Positions 7,843-61,603 of a stretch of 64,000 nt of DNA are shown piece by piece. The translations under genes and the position numbers were made by a program. The notes under the pieces are model-generated. The model ran no database searches. It had not been told where the DNA came from and worked only from the letters and a program-made list of their open reading frames with translations. The stretch covers positions 186,001-250,000 of the forward strand of contig NZ_CP011254.1 of the NCBI RefSeq assembly GCF_001006005.1. The letters are read 5' to 3'. Origin of the DNA: Serratia fonticola (lineage in GTDB: Bacteria > Pseudomonadota > Gammaproteobacteria > Enterobacterales > Enterobacteriaceae). Numbering within the stretch: the stretch's first letter is position 1; every line of letters begins with the position of its first letter.

Positions 7843-8010
7843 CCCCTCACCCTAACCCTCTCCCACAGGGAGAGGGGACTGAACGTGCCACCACTTTATT
7901 ACGGTACACGTCCTCAACATTCATCCTGTTACAGATTAACGTCTACACCTGCCCACGACACCGAACGGCTCCCTCTCCCTGTGGGAGAGGGTTGGGGTGA
8001 GGGGCCAATA
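7843..8010. repeat. Composite palindromic repeat, family 2 (two inverted copies)
   Basis: Two inverted copies of a unit with the form CCCCTCACCCTAACC followed by CTCTCCC-ACA-GGGAGAGGGG, at about 7843-7880 and 7970-8010, separated by about 90 bp. They fill the gap between sseB and pepB. The left copy contains at 7850-7866 an uninterrupted version of the sequence into which an IS110 element has inserted at 60181. Confidence 0.8.
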
Positions 8011-13485: not shown

Positions 13486-14700
13486 TTAATGATGTGCCCA
13501 TTCGATGCTGTTGATATCCACGCCCTGCTTGAACATGTCCCACAGTGGGGAGAGATCGCGCAGACGGCCAATGGATTTACGCACCAACGAAATGGTGTAA
13601 TCGATCTCTTCTTCCGTGGTGAAACGCCCCAGGGAGAAACGGATCGAGCTGTGCGCTAACTCATCACTCATACCCAGTGCACGCAGCACATAGGAGGGTT
13701 CAAGGCTGGCAGAAGTACAGGCTGAGCCTGAAGAAACCGCCAAGTCTTTCAACGCCATGATCAGCGACTCACCTTCAACATAGTTGAAGCTGACGTTGAG
13801 AATGTTTGGTGCACCGTGTTGCAGATCGCCGTTCAGATACACTTCTTCCATATCTTTCACGCCGTCCCACAGACGATCGCGCAGAATGCGCAGGCGTGCC
13901 ATTTCGCTGGCCATTTCTTCTTTGGCAATACGATAGGCTTCACCCATGGCAACGATCTGATGTACTGCCAGGGTACCGGAACGCATACCGCGCTCATGGC
14001 CACCGCCGTGGATCTGGGCTTCGATGCGGATGCGCGGCTTACGCTGCACATACAGGGCACCAATACCTTTCGGGCCATAAATCTTGTGGCCGGAGAAGGA
14101 CATCAGATCTACTTTCAGCTTGCTCAGATCGATAGGCAGTTTACCTACGCTCTGGGTTGCATCGACGTGATAGATGATGCCACGCGCCCGGCACATTTCG
14201 CCGATGGCGGCGATATCCTGCACCACGCCAATTTCGTTATTCACGTGCATGATGGAAACCAGGATGGTGTCTTCACGTATCGCGGCTTCTAGAACCTGGA
14301 GATCGATGATCCCGTTGCTCTGCGGTGCCAGATAGGTGACTTCAAAACCTTCGCGCTCAAGTTGGCGGCAGGTATCCAGCACGGCTTTATGTTCGGTTTT
14401 GCTGGTGATGATGTGCTTGCCTTTCTTCTGATAGAAGTTGGCAGCGCCTTTGATCGCCAGGTTATCGGATTCGGTGGCCCCAGAGGTGAAGACGATCTCA
14501 CGCGGGTCGGCGCCAACCAGTTCAGCGATTTGGTTACGGGCGATATCAACCGCCTCTTCCGCCTGCCAGCCGAAACGGTGGGAACGGGAGGCCGGGTTAC
14601 CGAAAGTGCCGTCCAGGGTCAAAAACTGCATCATCTTCTCGGCAACACGCGGGTCCACAGGGGTCGTGGCCGAGTAGTCCAGATAAATCGGTAATTTCAT
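13486..14700 (-). CDS. iscS: IscS, cysteine desulfurase
   Basis: 404 residues from the ATG at 14700 ([14 protein letters not shown]). IscS is a PLP enzyme that takes sulfur from cysteine as a persulfide and supplies Fe-S assembly, tRNA thiolation and thiamine synthesis. The PLP lysine is K206 ([10 protein letters not shown]), the catalytic cysteine is in [17 protein letters not shown], and H104 (TEHKAV) stacks on PLP. It lies between iscR and iscU. Confidence 0.99.
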
Positions 14701-14755
14701 TGCTCTTGTACTCCGTACATCACTTCCAAAAACCAATAAATTAGTCGTCAGCTGC

Positions 14756-15250
14756 TTATGCGCGCAGATTAACGTTGATCGTTTCTTGCAGACGACCGTT
14801 GGCCGTGCGGCGCGTATCGCTATTTTGACGGTCTGCCACGTCCAGCACTTCCTGGTTGTTCACCAGTTCGGCCAGCGTAATATTGTTCAAGAACCCGCTG
14901 ATGCGCTCGCTCAGATCGCGCCACAGGGTATGGGTCAGGCAACGATCGCCCCCCTGGCAGCCTTCTTTACCCTGGCAACGGGTGGCATCTACAGATTCGT
15001 CGACTGCGGAAATCACCGCGCCTACGGCGATAGCGTCCGCGTCTTTGCCCAACAGGTAACCACCGCCTGGCCCACGCACGCTGGCCACCAGGCCATTCTT
15101 ACGCAGACGGGAAAACAGTTGTTCCAGATAAGAGAGCGAGATACCTTGGCGTTCGGAAATATCCGCCAGTGGTACCGGCCCTTCCTGGGAGTGTAATGCC
15201 ACGTCGAGCATGGCAGTTACTGCATAACGGCCTTTGGATGTCAGTCTCAT
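14756..15250 (-). CDS. iscR: IscR, Fe-S cluster-sensing transcription regulator
   Basis: 164 residues of the Rrf2 family. IscR carries a [2Fe-2S] cluster and represses the isc operon when the cluster is loaded. The N-terminal winged helix ([18 protein letters not shown]) is conserved, and the atypical ligand set is seen at C92, C98, C104 and H107 (CQGKEGC...RCLTHTLW). The last about 25 residues are less conserved. It is the first gene of iscRSUA-hscBA-fdx-iscX. Confidence 0.98.
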
Positions 15251-38865: not shown

Positions 38866-39038
38866 GTTGCCCCTCACCCCAACCCTCTCCCACAGGGAGA
38901 GGGGGCCGTCAGGCACTCGTAGGTGAGAACGGTGGTGGTTATCTACCGCCCGTAATGGCGATGTAGTCCAGTTGTTCACCCCAACGCTCCCAAAGGGAGA
39001 GGCAGCCGTCTGGCGCTCTCAGGTGAGAACAATGAGGG
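38866..39038. repeat. Family 2 palindromic repeats and duplicated ydcS 3' end
   Basis: A family 2 copy at about 38872-38908 and a degenerate copy at 38978-39004 each precede a nearly identical segment: GTTATCTACCGCCC, one base pair of differences, then TGGCGATGTAGTCC. The segment occurs at 38938-38970 and again at the real ydcS 3' end at 39038-39070. This is an imperfect tandem duplication with a period of about 100 bp. Confidence 0.8.
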
Positions 39039-49126: not shown

Positions 49127-49340
49127 AAAAAGTATCCGGGATTGATGAACATATCATCACAGTTGGATACTAGGCGGTGCCTCACTCCACGTGTCGTCCG
49201 ATGCTTGATAAAGTCGCTTGCGCGTCTGTTATCGGTTTGGTTGGACGATAGGCACCATTTCTTAGGCATCATTCGGAGGCTTATGAGGCGCTGTTCCGTA
49301 CTAGACGGGGCCAATCATAAAAAGGTGAATGAGCAACTGA
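49127..49340 (-). ncRNA. glmY: GlmY small RNA
   Basis: GlmY is recognised by position upstream of glrK, by its sigma-54 promoter and by its 5' sequence TTGCTCATTCACC, shared with E. coli GlmY. GlmY raises GlmS levels by sequestering RapZ and so protecting GlmZ. The 3' end is a long hairpin (outer arms GTATCC/GGATAC, inner TGATGA/TCATCA) followed by TTTTT. The predicted length of about 210 nt is slightly longer than E. coli GlmY (184 nt). Small open frames overlapping this stretch are not conserved genes. The 278 bp between it and glrK hold only a GGGGCATGATGCCCC palindrome at 49025. Confidence 0.85.
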
Positions 49341-60164: not shown

Positions 60165-60181
60165 CCCCTCACCCTAACCCT
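60165..60181. repeat. Left part of a family 2 repeat interrupted by IS110
   Basis: CCCCTCACCCTAACCCT ends at the core dinucleotide CT (60180-60181). The remaining part, CTCCCAAA then GGGAGAGGGG, continues at 61386 and, after a second insertion, at 61604. Confidence 0.85.
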
Positions 60182-60189
60182 TATGTCTT

Positions 60190-60380
60190 GATCTTCTCCG
60201 CCTTAGCGGAGAAGCTCCCCGACTGATCATCGGGAGATAGCCGGTGAGCTCCCCCTAACCCTAGTGCCTATGAGCCCGTGGGAGAGATTGTGCCCCGGCT
60301 GTCTATTTCCCTGTCGCCTTCTAGACCGAACGGTATCCTGTGCCTATGAGCACCCACATATAAGGATGGTCCGGCGATAA
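60190..60380 (+). ncRNA. IS110 bridge RNA
   Basis: A structured RNA can be read in order: 5' stem-loop CTTCTCCGC-CTTA-GCGGAGAAG (60193-60214); a second hairpin (60215-60236); the target-binding loop closed by AGCCGG/CCGGCT (60239-60300); and the donor-binding loop closed by TCGCC/GGCGA and GACC/GGTC (60314-60377). Both loops contain the same 12-mer GTGCCTATGAGC. The target loop carries CCCTAACCCT, identical to the left flank, and TGGGAGAG, complementary to the right flank CTCTCCCA. The donor loop carries ACGGTATC, identical to the element's right end, and ATAAG, complementary to CTTAT at its left end. Exact transcript ends are not determined. Confidence 0.85.
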
Positions 60381-60408
60381 ATTTCAGACATGGTTATGGA
60401 GTGCCATA

Positions 60409-61368
60409 ATGCGTAGAACCCCTGTCGGCGTTGATATCGCCAAACACAAATTTGATGTCGCCGTACTGCTGGACAATCAGAAGTATAAAGCCAAAAAGTT
60501 TGCCAATACCCCTTCTGGATGCCGCGAGTTCGCAGCCTGGTTGAGCCGCTTTGGCGACTGTCATGTCTGCATGGAAGCCACCGGGAGCTACAGTACGGAA
60601 CTGGCCACTTATCTGGCAGACAACAACTACCACGTCAGTCTGATGAACCCGGCGTGTATCCATTCCTTCGGCAATACAGAACTGGCCCGGAACAAAACGG
60701 ACAAAAGCGATGCAGCGATGATAGCCCGCTACTGCGCACTGCATCAGCCTGACCCGTGGTTCCCAGCCCCGTTGAGCGAACGCCAGTTGACCGCGTTGGT
60801 CAGGCATCTTAAGAACCTGGAAGAGATGCGTCAGATGGAAGAAAATCGCCTGGAGGTGGCCGAAGCAGTCATCGTCCCTTCACTCAATGAGCACATCGCC
60901 ACGTTGGATGAACTGATACGAGAAACGAAGAAGAAAATCAGTCAGCACATCGATGATAACCCTGACCTGAAACGGGACAGCGAGTTGCTAAAAAGTATCC
61001 CTGGAGTGGGAGAGATGCTGAGCTCCAGCCTGCTGGCCTTCGCAGGAAACCTGCGTCGGTTCACCAGCAGCAAGGCCCTGGTAGCGTACGCAGGACTGAA
61101 TCCACAGCGATGTGAGTCGGGGATGTTTAAAGGGAAAAGCCGGTTATCGAAAGTGGGACACGGTGAGCTGCGAAGTGCGTTATACATGCCAGCGGTAGTG
61201 GCAGGCCAATACAATGTTGTGGTTAAAGACTTAACAGAAAGACTGAAGTTGCGTGGGAAGTCGGGCAAAGAGAGAGTGTGTGCGGCGATGCGAAAACTGC
61301 TGCAACTGGCCTATGGTGTGGTGAAATCAGGAAAGACATTTAATGCGGAAATACCGCTTGCCGGATAG
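60409..61368 (+). CDS. IS110-family transposase (bridge recombinase)
   Basis: 319 residues, intact. The N-terminal RuvC-like DEDD domain has D9 (GVDIAKHKFDVAV), E56 (CMEATGSY) and D98/D101 (KTDKSDAAMIARYC). A coiled coil lies at about 130-185, then the Tnp domain with SIPGVGEMLSSSLLAF and VAYAGLNPQRCESG, whose Ser236 is the likely nucleophile. IS110 enzymes recombine a donor and a target under guidance of the bridge RNA. The gene is complete and appears functional. Confidence 0.95.
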   Translation: MRRTPVGVDIAKHKFDVAVLLDNQKYKAKKFANTPSGCREFAAWLSRFGDCHVCMEATGSYSTELATYLADNNYHVSLMNPACIHSFGNTELARNKTDKSDAAMIARYCALHQPDPWFPAPLSERQLTALVRHLKNLEEMRQMEENRLEVAEAVIVPSLNEHIATLDELIRETKKKISQHIDDNPDLKRDSELLKSIPGVGEMLSSSLLAFAGNLRRFTSSKALVAYAGLNPQRCESGMFKGKSRLSKVGHGELRSALYMPAVVAGQYNVVVKDLTERLKLRGKSGKERVCAAMRKLLQLAYGVVKSGKTFNAEIPLAG

Positions 61369-61383
61369 CCGACAAGACGGTAT

Positions 61384-61393
61384 CTCTCCCAAA
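61384..61393. repeat. Middle part of the interrupted family 2 repeat
   Basis: CTCTCCCAAA between the IS110 right end and the 210-bp element. Confidence 0.8.
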
Positions 61394-61603
61394 GGGCTGA
61401 GGAATCCCCACTAATTTTTTCTTAGTGGTTTCAGAGAATTAGAACGAGTGTTTTACGAGCAATTTGTTCCATTTTGTTCGTAAATTGGCAGTGAGAGAAT
61501 TGTGAACGACTTCTTTCCTCCTGCTTTAGGCTGTTTTTCATCCCGTTTTTGGGTGAAAAGCAGCCTATTTCCCGTCTCAATTTTTCTGGGGATTCCTCAG
61601 CCC
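61394..61603. mobile_element. 210-bp non-autonomous element with 17-bp perfect terminal inverted repeats
   Basis: The ends GGGCTGAGGAATCCCCA (61394-61410) and its exact reverse complement (61587-61603) flank DNA without a credible gene. The direct repeat AAA (or CAAAG up to CCCAAAGGG, because the target is palindromic) flanks it on both sides. An internal hairpin at about 61528-61566 has the arms AGGCTG-TTTTCA-CCC and GGG-TGAAAA-CAGCCT. It fits a MITE; the parental transposase is not in the window. Confidence 0.8.

Follow-up and report, generated by a model that had tools for sequence, protein, structure and literature searches.

The locus examined here raises the question of whether a mobile element carries, legible in its own sequence, an RNA that tells its recombinase where to insert. 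It lies in a window of 64,000 nucleotides from Serratia fonticola, in which an earlier note had read positions 60190–60380 as an IS110 bridge RNA with guides for its own insertion site and its own ends. Our analysis leads to the same reading, to which we assign a probability of roughly 93%: the element belongs to the IS110 group of insertion sequences and has an RNA-guided (bridge) recombinase, and its mechanism is one that is already known. In the sequence, this reading is based on the boundaries, an open gene with catalytic residues, a conserved RNA structure, four guide matches, covariation of guides and flanks, and six copies within one repeat type; the circle, promoter activity, chemistry and strand exchange are carried over from IS621. 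Element and gene occupy the following positions:

60182–61385, forward strand: IS110-group element of 1204 bp, from the base after the left core CT (60180–60181) through the right core CT (61384–61385)
60409–61368, forward strand: recombinase gene, 319 aa, DEDD and Tnp domains (Pfam, NCBIfam and PDB matches)

The long left end (227 nt, 60182–60408) holds the RNA, and the right end is short (17 nt, 61369–61385). Joined at the CT core, the flanks read CCCTAACCCTCTCCCA and restore an abundant genomic sequence, as would be expected of a scarless insertion at this core. By their translations, the neighbours of the element resemble yfhL and acpS. The recombinase matches PF01548 (DEDD_Tnp_IS110) and PF02371 (Transposase_20) in Pfam and scores 223.4 bits against a cut-off of 140 with the NCBIfam model NF033542 ('IS110 family RNA-guided transposase'). 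Its nearest solved structures are ISCro4 (9t56, E 1.2e-75) and IS621 (8wt6, E 1e-72), and 142 of 318 aligned residues (about 45%) are identical to an IS621 protein whose sequence was obtained by translating an E. coli record. Residues D9, E56, D98, D101, S237 and G238 align with D11, E60, D102, D105, S241 and G242 of IS621, whose catalytic roles are described in PMC11208158; the reading frame is open and the catalytic residues are all kept, in line with the intact recombinase of the earlier note.

Six copies of the element with 99–100% identity are present in the genome (6.0 Mb, one contig), and since these near-identical copies occupy six sites, the family is probably mobile. A protein search of seven genomes of the genus gave a match at E ≤ 1e-60 in this genome only. 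A later search with the RNA model detected one relic within the same genus (G004), with the left flank and guides of a Serratia silvae record; in the S. silvae relic (L015, L099), an internal deletion joins the 5′ half of the RNA directly to the first part of the recombinase gene, and TCTAACCCT stands in both guide and flank where the window has CCTAACCCT. Protein relatives with 80–84% identity exist. The element had no match in E. coli genomes by blastn in its distant mode, and a relative's RNA used as blastn query had none among plasmids; the search of genome contigs yielded a single, truncated relative, and the protein search of viral contigs yielded one (L146).

The RNA is predicted to be laid out as follows:

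60190–60378, forward strand: predicted bridge RNA, about 189 nt (fold, RNAalifold on seven RNAs, covariation)
60190–60217, forward strand: 5′ stem-loop (helix 1, changes on both sides in 9 of 11 pairs)
60218–60234, forward strand: additional hairpin with stem CCCGA/TCGGG (helix 2, 98.6% paired, changes on both sides in 3 of 5 pairs)
60223–60229, forward strand: loop of this hairpin, CTGATCA, 7 nt, also found in relatives
60235–60304, forward strand: target-binding stem with internal loop (fold and covariation, helices 3 and 4)
60313–60378, forward strand: donor-binding stem with internal loop (fold and covariation, helices 5–8)
61358–61385, forward strand: right-end half of a promoter-like junction (−35-like TTGCCG, 17-nt spacer, TATCT)

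The exact start of the RNA is placed by the promoter-like junction. At position 60215, within the 5′ stem-loop, the window copy is one base off from its five siblings. The fold of the 189-nt RNA beats 199 of 200 shuffles (z −3.33), and RNAalifold on seven RNAs returns 56 pairs, 18 of them with changes on both sides. When 16 RNAs were fitted to the derived model, an alignment that by construction leans towards that model, 92.2% of cells were paired, compared with 33.7–42.7% for slid partners, with a covariation score of 0.534 versus at most 0.127 and 39 pairs changed on both sides; one of these RNAs is cut at its 5′ end, and another (L149) is without the CUGAUCA loop. The structure is thus conserved among homologues, with covariation, and it was on such conservation that the earlier note had made its claim depend. 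The model built from the window's branch also detects RNAs upstream of IS110-group genes that are more distant, including IS621-like ones. Rfam, which need not hold bridge RNAs, gave no family at E ≤ 1 for the element region (60.1–61.45 kb); elsewhere in the window, on the minus strand, it matched the sRNA GlmY (49171–49338) and an IscS-1 ICR thermometer family (14672–14855). In a circle, TATCT would be completed to TATCTT by T60182, so that joining of the ends is needed for the full TTGCCG-N17-TATCTT. Among 18 loci scanned, TTGCNN-17 nt-TATCT occurs in 11 (as a consensus match only); L191 has TTGAAG at 17 nt, the spacing differs in L151 and L152, and no match was obtained for L053, L059, L064 and L190.

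The internal loops of the two binding stems carry the guides. As the earlier note had observed, they share the 12-mer GTGCCTATGAGC (60264–60275 and 60340–60351), which we recovered both by direct reading and by script. The four guides are these:

60254–60262, forward strand: left target guide CCTAACCCT, 9 nt, ending in the core CT, identical to insertion-site P1–P9 (9/9)
60280–60286, forward strand: right target guide GGGAGAG, 7 nt, reverse complement of P8–P14 CTCTCCC (7/7)
60330–60337, forward strand: left donor guide ACGGTATC, identical to donor P1–P8, the right end of the element (8/8)
60356–60364, forward strand: right donor guide AC(AT)ATAAG, pairing with donor P13–P14 and P8–P12 with 2 nt bulged

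Here, target P1–P14 is CCTAACC-CT-CTCCC and donor P1–P14 is ACGGTAT-CT-TATGT. Both left guides had been recognised in the earlier note; that of the donor loop agrees in full, and that of the target loop, given there as CCCTAACCCT (60253–60262) and indeed equal to the left flank, is refined by us to 9 nt. The two right guides can also be refined. The proposed right target guide TGGGAGAG (60279–60286) is the reverse complement of CTCTCCCA (61384–61391), and its complementarity to the flank stands; however, G60278-U60279 is invariant in seven aligned RNAs and is the counterpart of the IS621 linker G72-U73, so the guide proper spans 60280–60286 and U60279:A is an extra pair. Likewise, ATAAG (60360–60364) does complement the left-end CTTAT, as had been claimed for the right donor guide, but the guide is longer, AC-(AU)-AUAAG, with seven bases paired. 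Donor P13 is G in the window, where the guide has C, and A in aligned relatives, where the guide has U. In addition, AT (60287–60288) may be a target-side handshake guide, able to pair with donor P7–P6 as IS621 A81-U82 does, and GA (60365–60366) a possible donor-side one, in which G60365 can pair with target C7 and A60366 mismatches C6. Of 20,000 dinucleotide-shuffled versions of the 189-nt RNA, 42 contain the left target guide, 624 the right target guide, 31 the left donor guide and 92 the right donor guide; none contains two or more guides. The guides can be assigned from the sequence alone and differ from those of IS621, as the earlier note had held, and the target-loop and donor-loop logic of IS621 is reproduced in guide geometry and in a structure that covaries.

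The site to which the target guides point is a host repeat interrupted by the element:

60165–60181, forward strand: left part of the host repeat, CCCCTCACCCTAACCCT
61384–61394, forward strand: right part of the host repeat, CTCTCCCAAAG, resuming at 61603 past a nested MITE

All six copies sit in one repeat type (6/6), with left flanks of the form CCCTCACCC[T/C]AACCCT and CTCTCCC on the right in 6/6; on the left, four copies have CCTAACCCT and two have CCCAACCCT, which forms a G-U pair with the guide. The left half of the repeat, CACCCTAACCCTCTCCCA, has 286 matches in the genome at up to 2 mismatches versus 0 for the reversed control. The consensus from 30 exact copies, CCCCTCACCCTAACCCTCTCCCACAGGGAGAGGGGAC, contains the palindrome CTCTCCC-ACA-GGGAGAG. 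By its sequence, the target is a repeat of the REP type, entered at CT at the 5′ foot of the palindrome; further examples lie in the window at 7848–7864 and 38875–38891. That insertion sequences target REP sequences is known (PMC1525189), and IS621 is described as transposing into the REPs of E. coli (PMC11208160). A side observation concerns the nested sequence at 61395–61602, a MITE-like foldback element of 208 bp with 15-bp terminal inverted repeats GGCTGAGGAATCCCC and a 5-bp target duplication (CAAAG at the window copy). It has six genome copies, 6/6 within the loop of the same REP palindrome and in both orientations; its ends give 12 matches at up to 1 mismatch, all accounted for by the six pairs, so that a longer partner sharing these ends did not show up among them. 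The REP-type repeat is used at two different points by two unrelated mobile elements.

Relatives with 57–63% protein identity (G028, G453, G487, G490, G525 and a Fukatsuia plasmid) keep the element ends and differ in target guides and flanks. We compared guides and flanks in elements matching one expression for the additional hairpin, which gave 35 guide-flank combinations in 8 guide groups, 6 of them with right flanks, loci at contig ends giving one flank or none; S. silvae, a near-duplicate of the window, was excluded from the permutations. On the left, the true assignment matches at a mean of 4.68 of 7 non-core positions, compared with 2.56 over 40,320 permutations, and on the right at 3.44 of 5 compared with 1.76; on the right side alone, 150 of the 40,320 permutations reach the true value. 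Only one assignment exceeds the combined score of 8.12: exchanging G028a with G453b, two groups with one left guide in common, gives 8.29 because the single right flank of G028a fits the right guide of G453b better. Sliding the guide by 1–5 positions abolishes the signal (left 4.76 versus 1.1–2.5, right 3.44 versus 0.7–2.3). Poor left flanks (at most 3 of 7 positions) are found in G525 (6/8 distinct), G487 (3/6) and G490 (2/6), and poor right flanks in G028a (matching at 2 of 5 positions) and G453 (at 2 and at 1 of 5). The comparison of relatives with their flanks suggested by the earlier note hence supports the view that guides and flanks change together, though some sites fit poorly, and by the permutation and register tests the insertion sites of homologues are related to their loop sequences, if not at every site. 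Three G525 loci have a fragment of the element itself as left flank, apparently by self-insertion; in L051 and L076 the site is at or just past the element's own left target guide, and in L123 it lies in the left end.

Based on these features and on the description of IS621, we propose the following hypothetical sequence of events, in which (i) the element would excise as a circle with the predicted junction ACGGTATCTTATG; (ii) the joined ends would build the promoter TTGCCG-N17-TATCTT, and transcription from it would yield the left-end bridge RNA of about 189 nt; (iii) the donor loop would pair with the circle junction ACGGTAT-CT-TATGT and the target loop with CCTAACC-CT-CTCCC, the 5′ edge of the palindromic extragenic repeat; (iv) the DEDD/serine active site of the recombinase would cut both DNAs beside the CT core and exchange strands, leaving the element inserted into the repeat in one orientation.

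Two other explanations of the locus have to be weighed against this scenario. The window copy could be a decayed element whose guides once worked, now immobile and with its RNA a fossil. Such decay would fit its single base change in the 5′ stem-loop and the slight divergence of its protein from the five siblings (99.4% identical), as well as the MITE inside the right half of its target repeat. We regard this as unlikely, since the frame of 319 aa is open with the catalytic residues present, the four guides and target P1–P14 are all intact, and five near-identical siblings lie elsewhere in the genome. Far less probable still, indeed close to negligible, is a choice of target by the recombinase itself or by the DNA structure of the palindrome, with the guide matches as a by-product. 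The repeat is palindromic, and the local MITE uses its loop without such a guide; a reader of structure, however, needs no two-sided matches of 9 + 7 nt on opposite strands, and relatives with other guides occupy other sites, which tend to match those guides. As an RNA-guided element, the locus would offer a bridge recombinase distant from IS621 and already programmed by nature for a repeat with hundreds of copies in the host: a natural system for insertion at many sites, which also illustrates how a change of guide can retarget elements within one branch.

Between the 5′ stem-loop and the target loop, the RNA of this branch has the additional hairpin. Its stem varies with compensation (CCCGA/UCGGG, CCCAA/UUGGG, CUCGA/UCGAG, CCGAC/GUCGG and UCCGA/UCGGA, with one mismatch in G453), and its loop CUGAUCA, one nucleotide followed by the self-complementary UGAUCA, is identical in all carriers down to 43–52% protein identity (L146, L147, L148, L151, L173 and L184); in L151 the hairpin stands at the 5′ end and precedes another hairpin. 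In a second branch (34–39% identity), a 5′ hairpin has the loop UUAGCUA, with self-complementary UAGCUA at the same one-nucleotide offset; the stems vary here too, and the loop has 9 nt in L074 and L192. Of 45 non-redundant upstream regions, 20 contain a 6-nt palindrome enclosed by a hairpin with 5 bp or more, compared with an average of 2.3 such regions, and 7 at most, in 200 shuffled sets. This count is not a probability because the elements are related: on the tree there are essentially two origins of the palindromic loop, plus L151. Coding sequence from these elements served as background: with a slightly wider geometry, the motif occurs in 8 of 137 windows of 240 nt. The 45 regions were kept from 70 loci after removal of redundant ones and of L155, which is without upstream sequence; loci at which the automatic guide finder had failed to pair the guide with the right end, which were many, stayed in. 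The single cases L152 (UCAUGA) and L195 (AAGCUU) are compatible with the background of 8/137 and were not counted as support. No 6-nt palindromic loop was seen at that place in L061, L149, L150, L153, L154, L156, L157, L158, L174, L175, L177, L188, L194 or the L057/L063/L185/L186 group. A DNA pattern for the hairpin had hit 13 stretches of viral contigs, one of which is the L146 contig; the other 12 are without such a hairpin and were judged chance.

The model of the second branch matched 17 of 251 genomes. Some of the stretches found (L203–L209) resemble bridge RNAs with no recombinase gene in the DNA examined and are possible relics or non-autonomous derivatives, L203 lying at a contig end; the RNA-like stretches L204, L205, L207 and L209, where no recombinase gene was found, have loops with a broken palindrome. 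In the gene search at these stretches, only the window protein gave matches, the query from L064 giving none and probably being the wrong open reading frame.

In the IS621 synapse, the target and donor loops are described as being supplied by two separate RNA molecules, with a disordered 5′ stem-loop whose deletion weakens binding and slightly lowers recombination (PMC11208158). Taken together with the conserved palindromic loop, this leads us to propose, tentatively, that the bridge RNAs of this branch may dimerise by kissing-loop pairing of their hairpin loops. Recognition by a protein, or coincidence, is likelier: the somewhat favoured reading is that the loop is conserved for the recombinase or a host factor to read and that its self-complementarity is fortuitous. 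The independent events are few (UGAUCA occurs in one clade and in L151, UAGCUA in another clade), by simple arithmetic about 3% of random 7-nt loops would contain a 6-nt palindrome, L156 and L158 lie within the UAGCUA clade yet are without the palindrome (L158, with an open gene, has UUAGCUC), no paired changes that preserve the palindrome were seen in the loops of either clade, and in IS621-type RNAs the palindrome is reduced to GGCC within a loop of 6 nt. Against a fortuitous palindrome stands the finding that two clades have different palindromes in one common geometry. UGAUCA might also act as DNA, given that GATC is the target of Dam and that Dam regulates some insertion sequences; the stem nevertheless covaries as RNA and the UAGCUA of the second clade contains no GATC, which makes control of the element through Dam quite improbable. 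If the kissing loop were real, it would tether the two bridge RNAs of a synapse, give the conserved, so far unexplained 5′ hairpins a role, and offer a handle for engineering bridge recombinases. The word 'kissing' does not occur in the main texts of PMC11208160 and PMC11208158, and among the matches listed by a search whose scope did not extend to preprints and most subscription journals, no paper joined it with IS110; the conserved self-complementary loop, as a point of possible novelty, is no more than suggestive.

Among known systems, IS621 as described in PMC11208160 and PMC11208158 shares with the window's element its gene architecture, DEDD and serine residues, CT core, left-end RNA and insertion into REP-type repeats. 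The 9-nt left target guide, the 8-nt left donor guide and the AU of the target-side handshake guide have the same form in IS621 (PMC11208158), and the right donor guide is likewise broken by two flipped nucleotides (PMC11208158; PMC11208160). In contrast, the right target guide has 7 nt here and four pairs in IS621, although longer ones are described for some orthologues (PMC11208160); the guides and the target repeat differ, and the additional CUGAUCA hairpin is skipped by the IS621-like L059 RNA in the model alignment. ISCro4 (PDB 9t56), the best PDB match by sequence, is about as distant as IS621 in a comparison of the protein alone. The ISEc11-type IS1111 group with its seekRNA, as described in PMC11187229, also combines a DEDD recombinase with RNA-guided site choice, but its non-coding region lies downstream of the gene and that of the window upstream; placement in the IS1111 group by a downstream RNA is ruled out by the mere 17 nt after the stop codon. 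A search for inverted repeats of at least 12 nt joining the element ends found none, the IS1111 trait being subterminal repeats of 7–17 bp. By description, the element also resembles ISPpu9, ISPpu10, ISPa11 and ISPsy8, which insert specifically into repetitive extragenic palindromes of other hosts (PMC1525189). With about 45% identity to IS621, the window's branch is a little-studied one, and its element is a new member that uses the known bridge-RNA mechanism.
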